Part shown: piece by piece, positions 3,506 to 13,602 of the stretch | How the letters are laid out: each line of letters begins with the position of its first letter | How positions within the stretch are numbered: the stretch's first letter is position 1 | Virus record (IMG/VR): IMGVR_UViG_3300033148_007126 | Coordinates: 1-21,166 of that record | From: a virus | Direction: 5' to 3' (one strand) | Length of the DNA: 21,166 bases | The notes under the pieces: model-generated | The model's database searches: none | Seen by the model: only the letters and a program-made list of their open reading frames with translations | What the model was told of the DNA's origin: nothing | Made by a program: the position numbers and the translations under genes

Positions 3506-4479
3506 TAATTTTCTTTGTGCTCCCGTACAATCTTCTTAAATACACTATAAACTTCGTCTAAATTTACCTGTGGGAATCCATCGGCAAAAAGCATCTTGAT
3601 CACTTCGGTTTGTCTGAATTCAGGTTCGTACATTTTAAATGTAGAGTCGATAGACTGCGATGTCTGTACTGAGATGGGCGGACTATATAACTGCATCACT
3701 TTATAATTTATCTCGATCAACTCCATATTCTCTAATATGAGATCATAAAACTTAACTTTGCTTCCTTCTTTAGATTTTTCCTGGCAGTATGTTACCAAGT
3801 CACTTAGCAAGAACGAATCTTCTTCTTTCAGCATAGGCAATCGCTTGGCGATAGTGCTCAACCCTACGCCAGAAACTCCAGGAAGATTATCTGATTTGTC
3901 GCCCGCTATTGCGCGCGCCAGAGCAAAGTTAGTGGGATGAATAGAAAACTGTTCTACTATCTCTTTTTCGTTCAGAATTTCGTCCTGAACTGGGCGGTAA
4001 AGAATGGTGTTGTTGTCGCAACACTGAATAAAATCTTTATCACTTGATACTATCACCTTTTGCCACTCAGCGAATCCAGACATGTTGCATGCATAAGCAA
4101 TGACATCATCTGCCTCCACTTCTGGGTAAACAAATTGAATAACCGGAGTTTTATTAAGATACTCTACCACTCGCAGTTGTTGCCACATCGCATTCGCTGC
4201 TTCCTCATTCTCATCTAAATTTCTAATGTTCCTATTGAGTCTAATAGGTTTTCTTCCCTCTTTGTAGGTCTTCACCATTGACCTTCTTTTCCTGCTGCCG
4301 CCAGCACCGTCCCACACTACTACGATGCCATCAGGTCGTATCATCCTACTTAACTTCTGAAGTCCTCTGAGAAAACCCACCAAACCACCAATCGGTTGCC
4401 CATTAGTAGAAATTGAAGGATTAACAATATAGTGTCTTATAAAGGCGTTATTGCCGTCAACCACCATCAATCTTTTCAA
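3502..4479 (-). CDS. 5'-3' exonuclease of the FEN / T4 RNase H family
   Basis: It probably removes RNA primers or 5' flaps during lagging-strand synthesis. The metal-binding acidic residues of the family are in place: Asp8 (VVDGNN), Asp57 (VVWDG), Glu122/Asp124/Asp125 (VEADD), Asp147 and Asp149 (SSDKDF), and Asp194 and Asp197 (AGDKSDN). The helix-clamp segment YKEGRKP is at 72-78, and the helix-3-turn-helix DNA-binding segment LPGVSGVGLSTIAKRL at 199-214. The 325-residue length is near T4 RNase H (about 305). The start is TTG at 4479 with a perfect AGGAGG 6 nt before it, overlapping the transglycosylase TGA by 4 nt. A rare TTG paired with a strong ribosome binding site suggests tuned translation. 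The next in-frame Met (Met5) would cut into the first beta strand, so TTG is preferred. Confidence 0.94.
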   Translation of the reverse strand: MKRLMVVDGNNAFIRHYIVNPSISTNGQPIGGLVGFLRGLQKLSRMIRPDGIVVVWDGAGGSRKRRSMVKTYKEGRKPIRLNRNIRNLDENEEAANAMWQQLRVVEYLNKTPVIQFVYPEVEADDVIAYACNMSGFAEWQKVIVSSDKDFIQCCDNNTILYRPVQDEILNEKEIVEQFSIHPTNFALARAIAGDKSDNLPGVSGVGLSTIAKRLPMLKEEDSFLLSDLVTYCQEKSKEGSKVKFYDLILENMELIEINYKVMQLYSPPISVQTSQSIDSTFKMYEPEFRQTEVIKMLFADGFPQVNLDEVYSVFKKIVREHKENY

Positions 4480-4952
4480 CGTATTCCTCCTAAGTTAGAA
4501 GTTGCCACAATCAGTTTCTCGTACTCTGTTGCTACTTTTTCGACATAATCATATCGCATCTCTTCAAAGCACGAAAACCCCGCGTCGTATGCACAAATTG
4601 CCAATGTCATGTTTCCTCCCGCCATATCAATCCAATATTTTATTATTTCAATGCCAGCGCGAATATTTGCATAAGGATCTTTCAACTGAGCACACGAATA
4701 TACCCCCCCAGAGGGCACAGGAGTCGCTGTGGGAGCGATTTGCATCAATCCGCATGCTCCAGACCTTCCAACCTCTTGGGCGCGCCAGGCGCTCTCTGCT
4801 TTTATTATTGAAAGCACTAATCCTGGATCAACTTCATTGTCCTGGGACTCTTGCGTAATAAAGGGGAGAAGTTCACATGCAGACCTTACTTGTGCATAAG
4901 AGTAGTCAGTTTGAGTGAGCGCAAGGCATAAGAAAAATGAAACAGAACTCAT
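4476..4952 (-). CDS. Exported lytic transglycosylase (SLT type)
   Basis: It would cleave peptidoglycan glycan strands in the periplasm. The SLT signature is clear: catalytic Glu53 in IIKAESAW, GACGLMQIAPTA at 65-76, NIRAG at 96-100, and AICAYDAGF at 118-126, which corresponds to the family AYNAGP. The first 20 residues are hydrophobic and end SYA-Q, a plausible signal-peptidase site. The n-region lacks basic residues, and no start codon lies further upstream before an in-frame stop. Several cysteines (26, 67, 87, 120, 128) could form disulfides after export. GGAGG precedes the ATG by a few nt, inside the end of the recombinase gene, which it overlaps by 4 nt. It could serve lysis or genome entry. 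Its setting among replication genes is odd for either. Confidence 0.9.
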   Translation of the reverse strand: MSSVSFFLCLALTQTDYSYAQVRSACELLPFITQESQDNEVDPGLVLSIIKAESAWRAQEVGRSGACGLMQIAPTATPVPSGGVYSCAQLKDPYANIRAGIEIIKYWIDMAGGNMTLAICAYDAGFSCFEEMRYDYVEKVATEYEKLIVATSNLGGIR

Positions 4953-6073
4953 TCTGCCTCCGCTTCTTCTTGTTCGTAAAAATGATCTGCCTCCACCAAC
5001 CTTTTGTCAAACTTTAGGATAACTTCTTCGTCGAAGAGTTCCATAACTCTGTTTTTAAATTTCTCCTGCGCCATTAACTCAGACCACTTAGGTGACTGGA
5101 ATTTCTCTGTAGTATTGTCGCCGTAATTGAGAGTCCACCATGCACCTGAACTATTTAATTGTTTTGAACTTTGTACCGCCTCAAATAAACTATCATCATC
5201 CCGAATGCCCACATCTTCTCCCCACATAATCTTAAAATTACAAGTGCGACCCGCAGTACCAAAGCGAGATTTCTCTAAACGTGCTTTAACTTCATTTCCA
5301 ATTCTGTAATTCTTGTCATCTACAATAAAACTACTTTTCCCTTTTCTTCCCGTCAACCAAATACGTAAGCTATAAGCGTACATCATAGATCTGCCACCAG
5401 GAGTTGTATACTTCTCACTATCAGTAGCATATTTCGGGTTTTGAACTTGGAGATTTGTTTTCAACTGATTAAGCACCAAAAACGTTGACTTGGAATTTGC
5501 TAGCGAAACTATTAGTTTCGACATCCCCTTTGCCAACACTCGCGCTTTCACTGCAACGGATTCATTCGGATTAAAGGTACCTTCCACATCACTCACTGCT
5601 GGAGTGAGCGCTAGCGAGTCCCAAATAAATAACATCCTGTTATCATTCGATTTCAGTAGTTCTTCTATCGTCTCTAAGACAAACTCGACAGACATCGCTT
5701 GCAAATACACAATATTTTCTAAATCAATGCCGCTTCGCTCAAGAAACGAAGGATCAATCGCGGATTCAGAATCAAAGTATATAACATCGATGCCCATCTT
5801 CTGAGCGCTAGCAGCAGTTTGTGCCGCCATGTAACTTTTACCACTTGCCTCCATCCCTGCAATCTCAGTAATTCTTCCTACCGGGATTCCCGCCATCTTG
5901 CCGCGGCAAATGATACCGTTCAACCAGGTGGAACCCGTGGGGATCCAGTCTGTAACTTCTGATGGATTTTCCGAGGTTAAGTCATGCGCCACTGGCATGC
6001 CCGCTTTCTTGTTAATCAAGTTGCGCATTTCACTGACGCTCAGATTGCCTGCTTTTGATTTAATTCTTGCCAC
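4949..6073 (-). CDS. recA: RecA/UvsX-like recombinase
   Basis: This is a strand-exchange ATPase that would form filaments on single-stranded phage DNA for recombination-dependent replication and repair. Walker A is GMEASGKS at 73-80. FDSESAID at 100-107 carries the catalytic Glu103 equivalent. Walker B is LFIWD at 148-152, and LVLNQLKTN at 199-207 corresponds to the RecA glutamine switch near Gln203. The loop PGGRSMMYAYSLRIWL at 225-240 matches the RecA GGxALxFYxSxR region. At 374 residues it is within both RecA and UvsX size. Its Walker A is closer to RecA than to T4 UvsX. The start is GTG at 6073 with AGGAGG 7 nt upstream. The leader also contains tRNA-Glu, whose 3' end is only 24 nt before the start. 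Confidence 0.93.
   Translation of the reverse strand: MARIKSKAGNLSVSEMRNLINKKAGMPVAHDLTSENPSEVTDWIPTGSTWLNGIICRGKMAGIPVGRITEIAGMEASGKSYMAAQTAASAQKMGIDVIYFDSESAIDPSFLERSGIDLENIVYLQAMSVEFVLETIEELLKSNDNRMLFIWDSLALTPAVSDVEGTFNPNESVAVKARVLAKGMSKLIVSLANSKSTFLVLNQLKTNLQVQNPKYATDSEKYTTPGGRSMMYAYSLRIWLTGRKGKSSFIVDDKNYRIGNEVKARLEKSRFGTAGRTCNFKIMWGEDVGIRDDDSLFEAVQSSKQLNSSGAWWTLNYGDNTTEKFQSPKWSELMAQEKFKNRVMELFDEEVILKFDKRLVEADHFYEQEEAEAE
4982..5010 (-). promoter_or_regulatory. Possible weak promoter inside the recombinase gene
   Basis: A perfect TTGACA (5010-5005) is followed after 17 nt by GATCAT (4987-4982), which matches TATAAT at four of six positions. It lies 30-60 nt upstream of the transglycosylase start. 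The -35 box and spacing match the strong promoters of this window, but the -10 box is poor, so it may be chance. Confidence 0.3.
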
Positions 6074-6216: not shown

Positions 6217-6951
6217 CTAAAGCAGATCGCTAAACGCTTTATCTACCTTCTCCGAATCTGAGGTGTATTTCTGTGTTTCATTAGAAAAACCTTCAGGATT
6301 ATCACCTGCCAGATGTTCATCCAGCATCTTCTGCACGTCGGCGGTGCTTCTACGTTCGAACAAGGTACTAAAATCAGGAATAGTATCCAAAAGTTCCTTG
6401 CACCGGTCATCACTCAATTCCTCGCAAAGTGAGCTAGACTGACGACGTGGGGTCAGTTTAGTGACGGGAAACTGACCACCGGGTGGCTTGCCGTATTGTA
6501 AATCAAGATCGACACCCGTTTCCAGGTCGGTGATATCCCCATATTCAGGATTAAGCACTAAACTAAGTAAGGTCTCATACACAGTTTTGCTGAATCCCCA
6601 GACGCGGGTACCCTCGCCATCTTCACCCCGCACAATGACGGGGGAGAAGAAGCGACTTTTAGCATTCAGTTGTCTTGCCATATTTTTGGATTCCTCGTCA
6701 CCTTCTCGGTAAAGATTCTTCACAAAATTACAAACAGGACAATTGTCGCCAAAATTATTATTTGGACAAAGAAAACCATTCTCTTTGCCAATGTTGTAGT
6801 GGAAGTAAAAACTCTTAAAAGGGTCTCCATCTTCTGTTGGCAGAATCCGAACGGTTTGGTTGCCTTCACTAGGTTTCCAAAACGAACCTCCCCCACTACG
6901 AGATTTAAGATTATTAAATTTACTTTGCATTTTCTTCATATCAATTGCCAT
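6217..6951 (-). CDS. Single-stranded DNA binding protein, T4 gp32-like
   Basis: It would coat single-stranded DNA at the fork and work with the recombinase, helicase and polymerase. The zinc site of T4 gp32 (His-x12-Cys-x9-Cys-x2-Cys) has a close counterpart here: His51, Cys62, Cys71, Cys74. The basic N-terminal segment FNNLKSRSGGGSFWKP resembles the gp32 region for cooperative binding. The C-terminus has acidic stretches and ends DKAFSDLL, the likely partner-binding tail. At 244 residues it is shorter than gp32 (about 300). ATG at 6951 has AAGGAG 7 nt upstream. A perfect-consensus promoter lies in the gap before it, fitting a protein needed in high amounts. The leader is purine-rich and unstructured near the ribosome site. 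Confidence 0.9.
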   Translation of the reverse strand: MAIDMKKMQSKFNNLKSRSGGGSFWKPSEGNQTVRILPTEDGDPFKSFYFHYNIGKENGFLCPNNNFGDNCPVCNFVKNLYREGDEESKNMARQLNAKSRFFSPVIVRGEDGEGTRVWGFSKTVYETLLSLVLNPEYGDITDLETGVDLDLQYGKPPGGQFPVTKLTPRRQSSSLCEELSDDRCKELLDTIPDFSTLFERRSTADVQKMLDEHLAGDNPEGFSNETQKYTSDSEKVDKAFSDLL

Positions 6952-6990: not shown

Positions 6991-7019
6991 ATTATAACAC
7001 GGCAAAATTATTCTGTCAA
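6991..7019 (-). promoter_or_regulatory. Perfect-consensus sigma70 promoter for SSB
   Basis: TTGACA (7019-7014), a 17-nt spacer and TATAAT (6996-6991) give twelve of twelve consensus matches. TG one base before the -10 box adds an extended -10 element. It fills the 56-nt gap before SSB, and its -35 box overlaps the end of the 94-residue gene. The predicted start is near 6984, giving a leader of about 33 nt. Confidence 0.92.
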
Positions 7020-7292
7020 GCTTTTATTTTCAAAAAGTTTCTCTTTCTCATCATCGGTCATTTCTATTTCCCTGATTTGCCCGACTGCGGATTCCCAATT
7101 AAAGACACGAAAATTATCCCGGTCCAGGTCCCATACTAGTTCTAACCTATCTGGAAGTTTTCGGTCGTTCTTCTGCCCAGATAACTTGGACTCTAGAAAC
7201 TCCTCCGGAATATCCTCTAGTTTGACAAAGGTCATGTGCCTCAATTCCTGATTTTTCTTAACAAACATGCCTGTATAAATCTTACTCATCAT
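7008..7292 (-). CDS. Unknown 94-residue protein, partner of the FtsZ-like gene
   Basis: A small soluble protein, acidic overall, without signal peptide or membrane segment. Visible features are an N-terminal strand-rich part (KIYTGMFVKKN, MTFVKLEDIP), a hydrophobic strand LELVWDLDRDNFRVFNW at about 50-66, and a charged helical tail (MTDDEKEKLF). I do not recognise a family. ATG at 7292 overlaps the end of the FtsZ-like gene by 11 nt, with GGAG about 9 nt upstream inside that gene, so the two are translationally linked. It could equally start at Met2. The SSB promoter starts inside its last codons, so it belongs to the polymerase/FtsZ-like transcript, not to the SSB one. Confidence 0.8.
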   Translation of the reverse strand: MMSKIYTGMFVKKNQELRHMTFVKLEDIPEEFLESKLSGQKNDRKLPDRLELVWDLDRDNFRVFNWESAVGQIREIEMTDDEKEKLFENKSLTE

Positions 7293-8127
7293 AATCTACT
7301 CCTTGTATGATTTTTGTGTTTTCTAAAATATAAATGTAATTCTGATCATAGGGAGTGGAATATACTCCAAACCCCGCCTTAATAGTTGAATTTTTCTGCT
7401 GTGTCCTCCGCTTAATGTTGGTCAATAAATCTGGGTCTTCATCTAACTGTTTCTGGTTTATCGCAAAATAATACTCCTTCTCGTTTATATGTTCAAGCGG
7501 GAAAAACATCTGATCTGTCATCTTTTCAATTGTTCCCACTCCTATTGTTGATATCCGCGATATTCCATCTGAGTCTAAAAAACTAGAAAAATTGGCGGGC
7601 GTATTTTTGTAGACATTCAACATATGAAAAGTTGTTGCGATTACTGAATTTATCTTTTGATAATATTGAGAAAGGGGAATGTTCCCTATGACCCTCTCAA
7701 TCTCGCTATTGGAAGCAACGTAAAGTCTCCGGAAAACCCCAGAGCGAGCATACTGCTGAAAGACATTGAAAGTTATTCTATCCAACGTCTGCACCAACTC
7801 AGAAGAGGCAGCAAGATCAGGTTTCACATAGATAAGTTCAATTGGGTTCCCTCCTACACACTCTAAAATCCGCAATGCAGCAGAAGATATCTTTCCTCCG
7901 CCGCCCACAACCAGCACAACGTCGCCTTCAATCTTTTTAAGAGAGTTGATGACTTTCGCTGGCAACTTGCTTTCGTAGTGTTCTGGATCGTCGCGCTTGG
8001 CAATAGAAAAACAGTTCTTTTGCTTAGGAAGGTTTGTGTCAACCTTATACACAGTATAGGGGTCATGCTCCCCCAGCAAATCAGCAATTGCGCAACCCGC
8101 GTTACCAAGTCCTATTATATTAATCAT
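7282..8127 (-). CDS. Divergent FtsZ/tubulin-like GTPase-fold protein
   Basis: The order of elements follows FtsZ/tubulin. There is an N-terminal nucleotide-binding loop INIIGLGNAGCAIADLL (2-18) and VDTN at 29-32, like the FtsZ NTD loop. A signature-like VVGGGGKISSAALRIL (73-88) stands where the family has GGGTGTG. RLYVASNSEIERVI (134-147) is followed by a helix, like the FtsZ IPNDRLL region. FSSFLDSDGISRISTIGVGTI (180-200) stands where the catalytic T7 loop NxDFxD and MGTG would be. Both the tubulin signature and the T7 acidic pair are degenerate. At 281 residues it is shorter than FtsZ (about 380) or phage PhuZ (about 315). ATG at 8127 overlaps the polymerase TGA by 4 nt. A perfect promoter (8229-8257) lies within the end of the polymerase gene. 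A plain Rossmann NAD-binding protein is the alternative, but the second half argues against it. Confidence 0.6.
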   Translation of the reverse strand: MINIIGLGNAGCAIADLLGEHDPYTVYKVDTNLPKQKNCFSIAKRDDPEHYESKLPAKVINSLKKIEGDVVLVVGGGGKISSAALRILECVGGNPIELIYVKPDLAASSELVQTLDRITFNVFQQYARSGVFRRLYVASNSEIERVIGNIPLSQYYQKINSVIATTFHMLNVYKNTPANFSSFLDSDGISRISTIGVGTIEKMTDQMFFPLEHINEKEYYFAINQKQLDEDPDLLTNIKRRTQQKNSTIKAGFGVYSTPYDQNYIYILENTKIIQGVDYDE

Positions 8128-9389
8128 ACTCTGATCTCCCTCATCCTTCCGAAATCTTTTCCTGCCCTTACTCCAACCATATATTTCCCGAAACGATTTG
8201 ACGCAAATATGTTTTTGATCTCTGGTATATTATACCGCTCTTCGGCGGGAATGTCAAGCACAAAACTGTCGTGAATCAAAAAAACTATTTTTGACGACGT
8301 TTCCCTAATAAACTCATGTACTTTGAGCACTTGCTCTAAAACTAGATCACTGGTCACGCTCTGAACCAAGTAGTTAAGAGCATAATGCTCGCGCGCTTCT
8401 ATTTCTCTGCCGAATGGAGTCGTAACCTTCATGCCATCCCAATACTTAGACAACACTTCATCACGATTATACGCCTTATTCAAAAGATGGTCTTTAGATT
8501 CGGGGTTGTACAACCAGGCGAACACTCGCTTCTTTGCTTCCTCTCGATCCTGTAATCCGCTGAACACGTTCTGTATATTCCAGTTATGTACGTCCTCCTG
8601 CGGTTGCTCTTCCCCCAATAATGCAAGAAGTGTTCTCAACTCTGCTGCGTTATAATCGAACTCCACAAAAAAATCATTAGTAGGTTTAAGCACCTTTCTA
8701 AAATTTTTGGGAAGGTTTAGGATAGGAAAACTACCCTTCTCTAGCGTAAGGCGACCGGTGATCGAACCATGTTGATTATACGTAACTGTGTTGCTCACGC
8801 TAGTCAACTTTTTCAAGTTCTGTCTCACGACAAGCGAAGATATCTCATCTTTCATAGCACCAAGATCAATGCTTAGAGAGTTGCTTCTTATCTCCGCAAA
8901 AAGTTTTTCTAAACTTAGTATTTTTTCATAGTTTAAAGGTCTATCTGTGTTATGAAAAATCCACTCTATTATGTCACACTTAACTTGTGAATACTCTTTC
9001 AAAAACCATTGCGGAAGAACATCATATGCGCATACATTATCGAGATCTACTTTAGAAATCACCAAAGCATTTTGAAATGCCGCCTTTCTATCTTGCAGTT
9101 TCCCCCACTCTTCTTTCAGGTGGTCTGGGCATGCTTCCGTCAAGGACTTACCCGAAGTATACAACTCTACATATTCAATATCATCATCGTGGAACCCGGG
9201 TTTGTAGTCCCAAGTAACGCATTGTTTTTCTGTTCTTTCCTCTTTGATATCCCCGTCATAATAATATCCTAAACATTCCTTTTTTAGATCTAAAACAGTA
9301 AAGACATTCCCCACTTCATCCTCTTTTCCTTTTAAATCTGAAGGATCCTTTCCGAAATTCTTCAATTTGCAAATACTCGCCTGGTGCAC
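8124..9389 (-). CDS. polA: DNA polymerase, family A, polymerase domain only
   Basis: The Pol I polymerase motifs are present in order. TGRLT is at 211-215. Motif A FVEFDYNAAELR is at 241-252 with catalytic Asp245. The O-helix has Arg282, Lys286, Phe290 and Tyr294 at the exact 4-residue spacing of Pol I Arg754/Lys758/Phe762/Tyr766. NYLVQSVTSDL at 339-349 matches the AxMQGTAADL region, and motif C LIHDSF at 371-376 carries Asp374. Motif C has HDS instead of the usual HDE. There is no 3'-5' exonuclease domain: only about 200 residues precede the palm, and they show no DIE-type exonuclease motif. The GTG start at 9389 has AAGGAAG 6 nt upstream, inside the preceding gene, which it overlaps by 74 nt. 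No in-frame Met offers a better start. Transcription probably starts at the embedded promoter 9581-9609. Confidence 0.93.
   Translation of the reverse strand: MHQASICKLKNFGKDPSDLKGKEDEVGNVFTVLDLKKECLGYYYDGDIKEERTEKQCVTWDYKPGFHDDDIEYVELYTSGKSLTEACPDHLKEEWGKLQDRKAAFQNALVISKVDLDNVCAYDVLPQWFLKEYSQVKCDIIEWIFHNTDRPLNYEKILSLEKLFAEIRSNSLSIDLGAMKDEISSLVVRQNLKKLTSVSNTVTYNQHGSITGRLTLEKGSFPILNLPKNFRKVLKPTNDFFVEFDYNAAELRTLLALLGEEQPQEDVHNWNIQNVFSGLQDREEAKKRVFAWLYNPESKDHLLNKAYNRDEVLSKYWDGMKVTTPFGREIEAREHYALNYLVQSVTSDLVLEQVLKVHEFIRETSSKIVFLIHDSFVLDIPAEERYNIPEIKNIFASNRFGKYMVGVRAGKDFGRMREIRV
8229..8257 (-). promoter_or_regulatory. Perfect-consensus sigma70 promoter inside polA
   Basis: TTGACA (8257-8252), a 17-nt spacer and TATAAT (8234-8229) match consensus at all twelve positions. 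It is wholly inside the C-terminal coding part of the polymerase gene. RNA starting near 8222 would carry about 95 nt of leader before the FtsZ-like ATG at 8127. It would allow the FtsZ-like and 94-residue genes to be expressed apart from the polymerase. Confidence 0.88.
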
Positions 9390-10533
9390 GTTTTACTTCC
9401 TTGTTGATAAACTTGAGCGCCGCCTGCTCTCCAGAATATATTAAAAAATCACTCGCACGTTGGACCACATGGTCAAACTTGTGTTGATCCCAATCTCTAT
9501 TAGTTTCTTTCGCGCGCAGGTAGAGACACAGGCGCACCCAAAAAAGGTTGGTGTATTTTCTCGCATATTCGTCACGTGTTATTATAGCACGGGTGCGCAC
9601 CGCTGTCAAGCTAATATTCCCGGAGGGTCCGGCGCCGAGGATTGGCGAGCGGATCTTCGGAAAAGACTGAACAAAAAAATTATAAAAATCAAACAGATAT
9701 ACTTTTAAAGTTGGAATATCGAAGAAGGAAGACTTATAGTAGTAGGTGTCAAACATAGTATTCAAATTAATTGAATAAGAATTCATAAATTTCTTTATCG
9801 CATAGGACCCAACATCAGCGATGAGGCGCCATGGGGCGTTCATGTCCACCGCGAAACCATTTCGATTGGCGATTTCACGATACAATTCAAAATTAACATT
9901 ATTAATAAACTCAAGTATTTTAGGAATGTCGTCTCCATGAGGTTTTTCTGCGAACTCTATAACCAATCCGCTAGTAAGGGGAGAAGAATATTTGCTGGTG
10001 ATGTATTCTGTCCTCGTAAAAGGAATCTCCAAAGACGCTCTATGAACGAATCTCGTAAACGCAGTAATAAAATCATCAAAATCTTCTATCTCGTCTAGAC
10101 GAGAAGGTTGAGAAATGAAAGGAAACAAAAAACTATTATAATAATCTTGTACATAAGAACCGTAATTATCATTAGTGCTGATCCATGCTCTTGTTGGTTC
10201 AAAGCGATCCTCAAACGGAGTTCCATCTATATTGATAAAATGATTTTGGCTTTCTTGCAACAGCATATCTTCTCGAAAAGATTCATACGCATCCGCAACA
10301 AAGTTGAGAACAAAGTAAGATCGGTCTTTTATATTATTTAACTGCTTAAGAAATGCTTCCGAAGGATATACAACATCTCCCTCTTGACTAACACGTCCAA
10401 ACAATATTTCATTATACCAAAAATCAATTTTTCTGTAGTCTCTTATGCCGGGAGGATAATTGTTGGCATATTTTTGACGTTCAAAAAATGCTTCTTGAGC
10501 AAGACTATTGTTTGATCCAACGCTTAGTTTCAT
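9316..10533 (-). CDS. Unknown 405-residue protein, probably structural (baseplate region)
   Basis: I do not recognise a family. The protein is rich in aromatic residues and asparagine (FLFPFISQPS, YYYKSSFFDIPTLKVYLFDFYNFF), with a basic C-terminus FRFKRKRG. There is no signal peptide, membrane helix or enzyme motif. It follows the large hub-like gene by 33 nt and is the last gene of the tail block, so a baseplate or tail-fibre-attachment role is plausible. ATG at 10533 has AGAGG about 4 nt upstream. Its 3' part is doubly used: it contains the perfect polymerase promoter (9581-9609), and its last 74 nt overlap the polymerase coding region and carry that gene's ribosome binding site. Confidence 0.85.
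   Translation of the reverse strand: MKLSVGSNNSLAQEAFFERQKYANNYPPGIRDYRKIDFWYNEILFGRVSQEGDVVYPSEAFLKQLNNIKDRSYFVLNFVADAYESFREDMLLQESQNHFINIDGTPFEDRFEPTRAWISTNDNYGSYVQDYYNSFLFPFISQPSRLDEIEDFDDFITAFTRFVHRASLEIPFTRTEYITSKYSSPLTSGLVIEFAEKPHGDDIPKILEFINNVNFELYREIANRNGFAVDMNAPWRLIADVGSYAIKKFMNSYSINLNTMFDTYYYKSSFFDIPTLKVYLFDFYNFFVQSFPKIRSPILGAGPSGNISLTAVRTRAIITRDEYARKYTNLFWVRLCLYLRAKETNRDWDQHKFDHVVQRASDFLIYSGEQAALKFINKEVKRAPGEYLQIEEFRKGSFRFKRKRG
9581..9609 (-). promoter_or_regulatory. Perfect-consensus sigma70 promoter for polA, inside the upstream gene
   Basis: TTGACA (9609-9604), a 17-nt spacer and TATAAT (9586-9581) match all twelve consensus positions, with TG one base before the -10 box (extended -10). 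The spacer contains the perfect 10-bp palindrome GGTGCGCACC (9592-9601). RNA starting near 9574 would have a leader of about 185 nt before the polymerase GTG at 9389. The promoter encodes the VRTRAII segment of the 405-residue protein. Confidence 0.88.
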
Positions 10534-10566: not shown

Positions 10567-13500
10567 TCATGATTGCGGAGTGGTTACGTTTGGCGTTGAA
10601 TCAATCCTCTGCTCGCTATTTGTAACCCCTCTTCCTGACCTTAGTTCCTGAATAGGTTCCCCAGCGCCAACTGCCCCAGAATCTGGCAGGTATCCGTAAT
10701 TCTGAAAAATACATTTTAGCGTAGTCTCCAACTTTCCTTCAGATATGCCTGTGGATACCTTGGTAATTATATAGAACCCACCTATGCCCAGTGAGCGCGC
10801 AATCGAATATCTCTCAACAGATGTCCCCAACCCGATGTTTGTTGGATTGATATAGACATATTGACCGGGTTGGAAAAACCCACTGCCAAAAAGAGTTACG
10901 GTAGCGTTATAGGGTTCTTGGAGAATTCCTATTCCGGCGCCGCCTTGCCTATATGCGCGCATGATATTAGCATCTCTAATTCTCTTTCCAGATTCTCTTT
11001 CCAAAACAATCTTCTTGACGAGACCTTTCGATGCGCCGATCTTCAAGTGATACACTCCTTCGCTAGCGTTTTCCAACTCATCTACTTTTTGAGAAGCAAA
11101 CGGTAACCGCGATCCATGAAGAATAAAAAACTGCCTGTTATTGGTACCTCTGTTTGTATTGGGGTCAAGAGTCGAAGTCTTAATAAAAAGGTTACTTTCA
11201 CCATCGCCGTCGCCATCGCCTTGATTGTTTGTCTTTTCATACACCAGTTGACTGCGGCGCAGGTGTGGATTCTCTCCTGCCACAACGCCCACCTTCACGC
11301 GTGTTCTTTCCTTCAAAGACCTTCTTATATCTGCGCCGATGGATATATTTTCAGCACTCTCAAGTGTACTCACAACCAACTTTGTCAGAAGAGATTGAAT
11401 AAATTGCTTAAAAGTAAAAACTGTATCCCCGTTAACAATCTCGTCCGTAAACCACATGGTGTAAGCATCAAATGAGATTGGAAGATTTGCCATGTTACGG
11501 CTTACTACCAGTTCAGTCCCTCTCCTGATCACAGTTTCCTTGATTTCTTCAGTGACTCTTCCCTGCTCTTCCTCCGAAATAGGACCTTCTTGCAGCGCCT
11601 CGCCCGTCTTTGTATCTACAATATTAGCCACTCTTCCATAATCAAGAAAAGATAAATCACCTAAAACTATTTCAAATTTATCAACATCGTTGGCATCCTT
11701 ATCCGGCAATACTCCTGCATAAAAATTAATCAGATCACCTAAGTAGAAAAACGTAACACGGATTAGTCCTTCTTTTTTTGCTTTCTTGGCGCCAAAAGCA
11801 ACATCCATTTTCTTTTTAATCTTTTCCCCATCGATATCTGTTAATTCTGGATCATCCTTATCTTCCACCTGAAGGTGTCTCAGGGTATTCTCGTCAGGCG
11901 AGGGTAACACTTCTGTCACATAGGCAGACTCCGTTGCGTCTGGACCGCTCACCGTGTCCGCAGAGATGAGGTTTGGAGGCAAACTGTTTTCTGCATAAAG
12001 TTGTTCCTCGACATCTACAAATAACAACTTGTTTTTGTTAATTAAATACTGGGTAAACTTCCCGTACAAAGAGAGTGTCAAACTCTTTGTTAGTGAAGCA
12101 GCCTTTTCTTCTAGTTTAGATATCTCTTCGTCGATTTTCTCAGACTTCTTGTCAAGCGCCCTTTGCTGTCTCCTCGTGACACCTCGGTCTTCATAGCAAG
12201 CAAATGGTCCGACGGGACTTGAGATAGAAGATTCTAAACTTTCTATCTCTTTCTTCTTCTGCTCAAGTTCTTTAAATATGTCGGCATTCTTTCCTTCAGC
12301 AGTTAGGTTGAATATGTTAGAGCGGTAATCACTCATAATTCCTTCGTACCGTGCCACGTACTCGATATCTAAATCAATAGTACCTTCCTCTCTAAAGTTA
12401 AACTTATGACTAACCAACGTCAAGTCTAAGAGTGCCCGGCTATTATCTACCGCGTTTCGAAAAGGTTCGCTAAGAGTACTATTGACTCCATATTTCCAAC
12501 CAACTTCCACCATAAGAGAAAACCCAGATTTATTTTCATCATCATTTCTTTTTTGTGGTTTAGCAGTCCATTCTTCTGCCTGCGCAGGGGTCAAATCTGT
12601 TTTTAGAAAAGTATCAACATCTGGAATGCCAGTTGGACACTCTCTGTCTGGACCTGGTTGTCTCTCGCTCCGCACAATTAGATCATACCACCTGATATCG
12701 TCCTCTCCTTCCGCACCATGATTAATGTGCGCGCTCGTGGCCAATTCTGATATAGACTGAAAATGCAATTTGAGAGTTGCCACTAGGGTGCGCGGAGCGC
12801 TGTAAAGGTTAGTCCCCGTTGTCTGCCAGTTAAATTGCTTGAATCCCACTCCCTGCCCATTCGAACCCAAAATATCTTTAAGGGGTTCATCTTTTTTTAA
12901 ATTATAGGTCCATCTCAAGTGATCTAAGAATTGAAATTCTGTTAGTTTTTTACCCTTTCTCTTGCAAACACGAAAATAAGGAGTCAACTGACTAAGCTCA
13001 AATGGCGTTGCATTCATCAGTGGTCCCAATTTAGAACTGCTAGTAAGTTTGTTGATCAAATTTCCCTTATAGTTGGATACCAATATCAAGTTCTGGAGAG
13101 TAGTGCTAGCGCCTGGGAGCGTATTTCGACGCTCTCCTGTTAAGACTTTTTCGGCCCCTCTGGTCGGTCTCTGATCTAGATCAGAAAATGCTAAAAAATT
13201 AGCAGCAATATAATTTTGATCTGTCTGCTTTGCTAGTTTTTCTTTCCATGCAGGCTCGCCAACCTTTTCTTTTTTGTCAGCAACAGTCTTTCTAGATGGA
13301 ACACCCTTCCTTCTCTTGGCACCGCGTATTTCTTCAACGGCTCTATCGTCTATCTTTTTGATAATCCGTTGCCCGGGTTCGCGCCCTTTTCGTTTCTCTC
13401 CGGTGAAAGGATCGAGGAAGTCCGTAAAGTACTTCGCGGTGCGCTCAAGTCTACGCGCTTCAATCGCCTTGAGTTCTTTTTGGTAATACTGCTCGCGAGT

Positions 13501-13602
13501 TAGTCCTTTTCGATTGAGGGTTTTAACCTCCTTCTGTTTTGGAGGTTCAGGGTTGTTGACTACAGGACTCTCTGAGGTGCCGTGCTTATCGAAGGTGGCC
13601 AT
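10567..13602 (-). CDS. Large virion protein, probable baseplate hub component (1011 residues)
   Basis: It is the largest gene of the window and lies between the LysM wedge gene and the 405-residue gene, in the baseplate block. The first 130 residues are highly charged and probably disordered (many Lys, Arg, Glu). A beta-rich part at about 265-425 includes LVATLKLHFQSISELA and LDLTLVSHKFNFREEGTIDLDIEY, a pattern I associate with T4-type baseplate and hub proteins. A coiled coil follows at about 440-505 (KELEQKKKEIESLE, KKSEKIDEEISKLEEKA). The C-terminal 150 residues again look like a beta domain (FFQPGQYVYINPT, GGFYIITKVSTGI), recalling a late hub domain. A Ser/Thr/Gly-rich tail ends the protein. 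No lysozyme or peptidase motif is visible. ATG at 13602 has GAGGGGG about 10 nt upstream and starts 3 nt after the LysM gene stop. Confidence 0.75.
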   Translation of the reverse strand: MATFDKHGTSESPVVNNPEPPKQKEVKTLNRKGLTREQYYQKELKAIEARRLERTAKYFTDFLDPFTGEKRKGREPGQRIIKKIDDRAVEEIRGAKRRKGVPSRKTVADKKEKVGEPAWKEKLAKQTDQNYIAANFLAFSDLDQRPTRGAEKVLTGERRNTLPGASTTLQNLILVSNYKGNLINKLTSSSKLGPLMNATPFELSQLTPYFRVCKRKGKKLTEFQFLDHLRWTYNLKKDEPLKDILGSNGQGVGFKQFNWQTTGTNLYSAPRTLVATLKLHFQSISELATSAHINHGAEGEDDIRWYDLIVRSERQPGPDRECPTGIPDVDTFLKTDLTPAQAEEWTAKPQKRNDDENKSGFSLMVEVGWKYGVNSTLSEPFRNAVDNSRALLDLTLVSHKFNFREEGTIDLDIEYVARYEGIMSDYRSNIFNLTAEGKNADIFKELEQKKKEIESLESSISSPVGPFACYEDRGVTRRQQRALDKKSEKIDEEISKLEEKAASLTKSLTLSLYGKFTQYLINKNKLLFVDVEEQLYAENSLPPNLISADTVSGPDATESAYVTEVLPSPDENTLRHLQVEDKDDPELTDIDGEKIKKKMDVAFGAKKAKKEGLIRVTFFYLGDLINFYAGVLPDKDANDVDKFEIVLGDLSFLDYGRVANIVDTKTGEALQEGPISEEEQGRVTEEIKETVIRRGTELVVSRNMANLPISFDAYTMWFTDEIVNGDTVFTFKQFIQSLLTKLVVSTLESAENISIGADIRRSLKERTRVKVGVVAGENPHLRRSQLVYEKTNNQGDGDGDGESNLFIKTSTLDPNTNRGTNNRQFFILHGSRLPFASQKVDELENASEGVYHLKIGASKGLVKKIVLERESGKRIRDANIMRAYRQGGAGIGILQEPYNATVTLFGSGFFQPGQYVYINPTNIGLGTSVERYSIARSLGIGGFYIITKVSTGISEGKLETTLKCIFQNYGYLPDSGAVGAGEPIQELRSGRGVTNSEQRIDSTPNVTTPQS

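Follow-up and report, generated by a model that had tools for sequence, protein, structure and literature searches.

A compact protein of predicted FtsZ/tubulin fold in the replication module of uncultivated T4-like phages

What might a protein resembling FtsZ be doing among the replication genes of a T4-like phage? The question is raised by a 281-aa open reading frame with an ATG start, here called TUB, on the minus strand at 7282-8127 of a virus fragment of 21,166 bases (the window, i.e. the whole stretch of DNA analysed); the plus strand of the same interval is full of stops. A sequence-only reading had taken this ORF for a divergent FtsZ/tubulin-like protein coded between DNA polymerase and single-strand DNA-binding protein (SSB) inside a replication operon, and had guessed at a non-hydrolysing filament, a cap or an inhibitor of host FtsZ. 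The strings that it placed in FtsZ loop order, GLGNAGCAIADLL, VDTN, VVGGGGKISSAA, ASNSEIERVI and FLDSDGISRI...GVGT, are all present in that order in the minus-strand translation, and a profile alignment described below beats its shuffled controls.

The record carries T4-type tail genes (sheath, tube and baseplate parts), after which, in the direction of transcription, come a family-A DNA polymerase, TUB, a 94-aa ORF, a gp32-type SSB and UvsX; beyond UvsX lie genes for a transglycosylase, a 5'-3' exonuclease, a helicase of DnaB/gp41 type and ribonucleotide reductase (Table 1). The proposed placement in a replication operon thus holds, as does the polymerase on one side, which is of family A; on the SSB side the proposal needs correcting, in that the 94-aa ORF intervenes. 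The start of TUB overlaps the end of the polymerase gene by 4 bases, and its end overlaps the 94-aa ORF by 11 bases. The latter ORF is weakly similar to WYL_2 (Sm-like SH3 barrel) and to phrog_1086. Elsewhere in the neighborhood, a Transglycosylase SLT gene with a signal-like start (4476-4952, minus strand), between UvsX and the exonuclease, is shared with just a few closely related phages, and two conserved proteins of 405 and 1011 aa encoded upstream of the polymerase (9316-10533 and 10567-13602, minus strand) are without any family assignment.

Table 1. Positions in the window of TUB, its neighboring genes and segments of the TUB protein
Feature	Positions	Strand	Basis or remark
TUB, compact FtsZ-fold protein (predicted), 281 aa	7282..8127	-	ORF; AlphaFold2; Foldseek; profile alignment to FtsZ
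Family-A DNA polymerase, 421 aa	8124..9389	-	Pfam DNA_pol_A 3.1e-12; conserved motifs
94-aa ORF	7008..7292	-	homologues in part of clade; weak WYL_2 match, E 0.046
gp32-type single-strand DNA-binding protein	6217..6951	-	Pfam gp32 1.7e-14
UvsX-like recombinase, next conserved module member	4949..6073	-	phrog_97 4e-53; synteny
T1-like glycine loop, residues 4-13 (IIGLGNAGCA)	8089..8118	-	aligned with E. coli FtsZ GVGGGGGN 17-24
T4-like phosphate loop, residues 75-85 (GGGGKISSAAL), non-canonical	7873..7905	-	aligned with FtsZ GGGTGTG 105-111
T6-like loop, residues 136-143, with N140	7699..7722	-	aligned with FtsZ IPNDKLL, N165
Core helix H7, residues 152-174, with N160	7606..7674	-	23-residue helix in model; N160 aligned with FtsZ N186
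T7-equivalent loop, residues 175-190 (NTPANFSSFLDSDGIS)	7558..7605	-	no helix in model, no FtsZ H8
Shortened C-terminal domain, residues 191-275	7303..7557	-	model: S7, S8, two short helices, S9, S10

An AlphaFold2 model of TUB made from an alignment of 58 sequences (pLDDT 93.9, pTM 0.92) meets the definition of the superfamily fold, i.e. an N-terminal nucleotide-binding domain, a long H7, here the core helix at 152-174, and a C-terminal alpha/beta domain, which is four-stranded in the model. A structure search of the PDB had been set beforehand as the test that could refute the assignment by placing TUB with NAD(P)-binding Rossmann proteins. Foldseek returned 531 matches at E <= 0.001, and all 50 of those listed are FtsZ (best 1.6e-14), with TM-scores mostly 0.70-0.74 when normalised to the query and with alignment over the whole chain and both domains. 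The refuting outcome was to include absence of the long core helix and second domain, and both are present in the model. In a library of viral structures only six matches reached E <= 0.001, and these are phage FtsZ, tubulin and PhuZ entries together with one nameless entry.

Profile comparison agrees with the predicted structure in supporting a divergent FtsZ/tubulin-like protein. When a TUB profile from 121 pocket-keeping members was aligned with an FtsZ profile (the E. coli sequence and 30 more), T1, T2, T4, T6 and H7 fell in register at 19% identity. The match-only score was 42.1, whereas 300 column shuffles averaged 15.6 and reached 24.4 at most. An earlier shuffle control with a shallow, insert-stripped alignment was weak, one of 200 shuffles reaching the real score; repeated with the deeper alignment, none of the 300 did. 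Pfam Tubulin matches TUB members weakly only (6 of 58, best E 0.062). The identity of TUB rests on structure prediction and profile alignment, and about as surely as prediction allows the ORF almost certainly encodes a compact protein of FtsZ/tubulin fold. The competing identity is that of a Rossmann protein which binds NAD(P), begins with GxGxxG and is unrelated to FtsZ, and to this weak matches of the first 35 residues to Pfam Sacchrp_dh_NADP and TrkA_N (best 8e-4) lend some color. However, the Sacchrp_dh_NADP match of the window's TUB covers residues 3-37 only, whereas the structure and profile alignments track FtsZ through T4, T6, H7 and the second domain, and the Rossmann identity is barely tenable.

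TUB is more than a chance ORF, since full-length relatives (the close ones at 36-76% identity) occur in many other viral contigs and some residues are near-invariant across the 135 distinct full-length members that make up the family alignment, all from IMG/VR except one metagenome-binned contig. The carriers are uncultivated, mostly marine T4-like phages. The sole genome match, in a WOR-3 bin (L084), gives no host, because the phage contig is flanked by 100-N joints and is probably a binning accident. G6, G8 and Q124 are found in all 135 members, R128 and S129 in 134 and G11 in 132, and Y219, I223 and Y266 are conserved in the C-terminal domain; the most constant residues are thus not confined to the pocket. 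The helix that precedes S6 ends with Q124, R128 and S129, which may mark a surface for a partner or serve as a structural lock. In ten long contigs TUB is present as a single copy each. No family assignment was obtained from Pfam, PHROGs, NCBIfam or PDB sequences, no isolate phage with TUB was found in INPHARED by tblastn of the TUB protein and of a distant member, and no published description of the family was found in the literature searched, which did not include subscription papers or preprints.

One clue to what TUB does is where it lies. A search of IMG/VR with the polymerase alone gave 80 loci; TUB is downstream in 77, three are too short and none is without it. In the reverse direction, the polymerase is upstream in 75 TUB loci and missing from none of those with 2.5 kb upstream, nine loci starting too close to judge. 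The two genes overlap in 81 of 126 pairs, TUB is still present where the gap between them is 0.8-2 kb, and the order Pol-TUB-gp32-UvsX-FEN-helicase is maintained across loci. TUB thus belongs to the replication module and has been passed on with the family-A polymerase. This constant position after the polymerase gene suggests that an FtsZ-shaped component here serves the replication of phage DNA and is not a classical moving cytoskeleton. Nevertheless, the co-inheritance may come down to the phages being a single clade in which module order is fixed, and synteny is no proof of physical interaction. The polymerase itself is minimal, with motifs A, B and C present and no recognisable 3'-5' exonuclease domain (no DNA_pol_A_exo1 was found); a T4-like phage would be expected to have one of family B. 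The distantly T4-related Rhodothermus phage RM378 has no convincing match to the polymerase or to TUB (best profile 10 bits, E 0.009).

Such a linkage could mean that TUB is a processivity or assembly factor of the polymerase, doing the job of the absent T4 clamp and clamp loader. Ten contigs that carry TUB and are 100-204 kb long (those behind L053, L060, L047, L042, L035, L202, L204, L156, L010 and L005) have no T4-type clamp detectable with profile phrog_223, the completeness of the contigs being unknown, and only weak AAA-type matches to the clamp-loader profile. The phrog_223 profile finds the clamps of T4 and of cyanophage S-PM2 at E < 1e-78, and was used instead of PF02916, which misses the S-PM2 clamp and was dropped. 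Together with the co-occurrence in 77/77 and 75/75 loci and the lack of an exonuclease domain in the polymerase, these results count in favor of a processivity role; however, the clamp absence is suggestive only, being a matter of sequence profiles. Moreover, family-A phage polymerases can use host factors, and we know of no biochemical precedent for the FtsZ fold in such a role. A processivity factor is accordingly a speculative proposal, and quite doubtful as it stands. In its boldest form, held with the same reserve, the FtsZ/tubulin fold would have been turned into an obligate replisome component that binds the minimal polymerase and supplies a clamp- or clamp-loader-type function, its pocket a relic or switch lost in some lineages.

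The nucleotide pocket is altered in sequence and lost in some members. The glycine-rich T1 loop is retained as GLGxAGC with the invariant G6 and G8. Residues 77-82 of TUB align with the last part of the GGGTGTG loop in E. coli FtsZ (105-111), and the canonical T4 signature GGGTG(S/T)G (pattern GG[TS]G[ST]G) occurs in none of the 135 members, which bears out the sequence-only reading of an altered T4 loop. The guanine-contacting asparagines of T6 and the start of H7 are present in the window's TUB and in ~90% of members (N140 in 121 of 135, N160 in 122). In most members the Asn pair and the T4 loop are inferred, in the absence of binding data, to make up a functional nucleotide pocket. Loss of the pocket appears to be concerted: 13 of the 14 members without N140 also lack N160, none lacks N160 alone, and Asp or Glu stands at position 78 of the T4 loop (FtsZ G107) in 13 of these 14, compared with only 2 of the remaining 121. 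A quick tree from which the pocket columns concerned had been left out requires six changes for the loss, at least three of them forced by well-supported branches; the independent pairs, three in number, are too few for a significance test. In the loci of pocket-less members no second TUB copy was seen and the gene position is unchanged. One such member (L190) has a predicted model of the same fold (pLDDT 95.6), which matches FtsZ and TubZ in Foldseek (best E 3.2e-11), and nearly all pocket-less members retain Q124, R128 and S129. Because the pocket has been lost in several lineages while fold and gene position stayed, nucleotide binding would not be essential to the core task of TUB, and its main task is inferred to be independent of the pocket.

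The opposite face of the protein is less well kept. In FtsZ, H8 comes after T7, whose canonical acids supply the missing part of the active site in the adjoining subunit. In the TUB model there is no helix at the place of FtsZ H8 or of H9 (between S7 and S8), and the T7-equivalent segment has the lowest mean conservation among the segments measured, 1.87 bits. Positions 185 and 188, spaced i, i+3 like D209/D212 in E. coli FtsZ, are both acidic in 62 members; 56 have an acid at one of the two and 17 at neither. The window's TUB has D185 and D187, but G188. From the alignment the acid pair appears commoner than expected for a free loop, but it lacks the invariance seen in an active FtsZ. The earlier description of T7 as altered is therefore right in that the acids are not invariant, and needs qualifying to the extent that 62/135 members have both of them and 56/135 have one. 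Since the T7 loop is shortened and not conserved, TUB is probably a poor GTPase and probably does not form a treadmilling filament; hydrolysis is not excluded, because of the very frequency of the T7-like acid pair.

These features bear directly on whether TUB is a cytoskeletal filament of the PhuZ/TubZ kind, i.e. one that assembles with GTP into polymers and places or segregates the phage DNA as it replicates. The best-known phage tubulins are those of the nucleus-forming jumbo phages, in which they make moving filaments and can be dispensable. A filament would suit an FtsZ fold with both domains, a pocket that most members retain, acids spaced as in FtsZ T7 in many members, and phage tubulins as the only significant matches in the viral structure library. 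Less easily reconciled with it are the complete absence of the canonical T4 motif, the variable T7 acids, a model without H8, H9 or any C-terminal extension, and the loss of the pocket in several lineages. PhuZ-type structures, furthermore, fit TUB worse than FtsZ does (TM 0.53-0.56), and the TUB profile scores 14.9-16.3 against the PhuZ of 201phi2-1, which is at shuffle level, albeit in a weak test with a single PhuZ sequence. A filament of this kind is unlikely, while remaining a possibility to be reckoned with.

The asymmetry between the two faces, with the nucleotide face more conserved and the T7 face degraded, would fit a protein that adds to the end of a host FtsZ filament and blocks the next subunit, and a decoy or cap that stops cell division during infection has precedent in that phage inhibitors of FtsZ are known. 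Yet the strict linkage to the polymerase and replication module is hard to square with such a cap, and loss of the nucleotide face in several lineages would be unexpected if that face docks on FtsZ; we regard the cap as improbable. Neither a host-FtsZ cap nor a filament is excluded, and a protein aimed at the host, for which the replication genes are no more than co-expressed neighbors, would agree equally with these data. The neighborhood evidence nevertheless points more to a polymerase-linked replication role than to the filament, cap or host-FtsZ inhibitor guesses of the sequence-only reading.

The explanation preferred here, with about an even chance of being correct, is that TUB is a polymerase-linked accessory of replication which binds nucleotide in most members and probably does not act as a dynamic GTPase. 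TUB would be made together with the polymerase by way of the overlapping genes and would assemble at the replication site, either by itself (as a dimer or a short filament) or jointly with polymerase or SSB, where it may help to hold or organise the replication machinery. The FtsZ-type pocket, presumably ancestral and sometimes lost, probably still binds guanine nucleotide in most members and may serve as a structural or switch element. All of these functional steps are inferred, GTP binding, hydrolysis and polymerisation among them; what has been established is limited to identity, conservation and neighborhood. What emerges is a reduced FtsZ-fold protein that has become a constant element of the replication module in a widespread, uncultivated clade of T4-like phages. 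It is a concrete candidate for a part still lacking from the replication machinery of common environmental phages. The branches that drop the pocket and keep the protein offer a natural series for learning what the FtsZ fold does without GTP.

Comparison with known systems places TUB in relation to several branches of the superfamily. The two-domain fold, H7, the T1 glycine loop, the asparagines in T6 and at the start of H7 and the order of elements are shared with FtsZ, the cell-division GTPase of bacteria and archaea (E. coli, TIGR00065). Unlike FtsZ, to which it is about 15% identical, TUB has no linker or C-terminal tail in its 281 aa, a loop of G-G/S-x-G-x-I-S-G/S/A-A type in place of the T4 signature, no H8 or H9, an unconserved T7 and a phage replication context. 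FtsZ proper was rejected as an assignment, the TIGR00065 cut-off not being reached (only 9 of 64 TUB members match at all, best E 0.016). The divergent FtsZl1 and FtsZl2 are, like TUB, side branches of the superfamily outside cell division, but they were described from bacteria and archaea, and the GGGTG(S/T)G loop is intact in both (Makarova and Koonin 2010, PMC2875224). Coiled coils are present in most of FtsZl1, and FtsZl2 has a C-terminal region of ~300 aa (PMC2875224), for neither of which there is room in TUB, whose T4 loop is moreover altered.

Among phage proteins, the best viral structural matches to TUB are A0A6J5RW92, "FtsZ Cell division GTPase" of an uncultured Caudovirales phage (TM 0.79), and A0A8S5UFG9 of Myoviridae sp. 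ctcyQ27 (TM 0.66); these proteins are 387-452 aa long and 10-16% identical to TUB. A query of phage sequences with E. coli FtsZ found only 26 records with standard bacterial-type FtsZ, mostly unannotated metagenomic or host-like. One phage with the compact TUB encodes a second protein of the FtsZ/tubulin family, 364 aa long (L212:2887-3981, minus strand, about 103,386-104,480 in the 165.9-kb contig to which L042 also belongs). This second protein has canonical-looking loops (GVGGGGGK, GGGGGTGS) and a best PDB match to 3zid (E 1.7e-6), no match in INPHARED, and is absent from 13 other contigs tested. The uncultivated Far-T4 phages of aquatic viromes, T4 relatives without isolates, may overlap with the TUB-bearing clade; their description does not mention FtsZ, tubulin, gp32 or UvsX (Roux et al. 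2015, PMC4360716).

PhuZ/TubZ of the phiKZ-like jumbo phages (e.g. 201phi2-1 gp59) is likewise phage-encoded and of FtsZ/tubulin fold. However, 201phi2-1 PhuZ keeps GGGSGS where the T4 loop of TUB is altered, and assignment of TUB to PhuZ/TubZ was set aside for want of the canonical T4 loop and of profile similarity to that one PhuZ sequence. PhuZ is known from nucleus-forming jumbo phages, not T4-like phages (PMC7824862). Even among jumbo phages it is not universal, Asesino being without PhuZ (PMC11724907), whereas TUB is found with every testable copy of its polymerase. Because TUB failed tests for defining features of FtsZ, PhuZ/TubZ, FtsZl1 and FtsZl2 alike, it is filed with none of them; it is a previously undescribed compact family in an unusual, polymerase-linked setting, a family of its own with a known fold.
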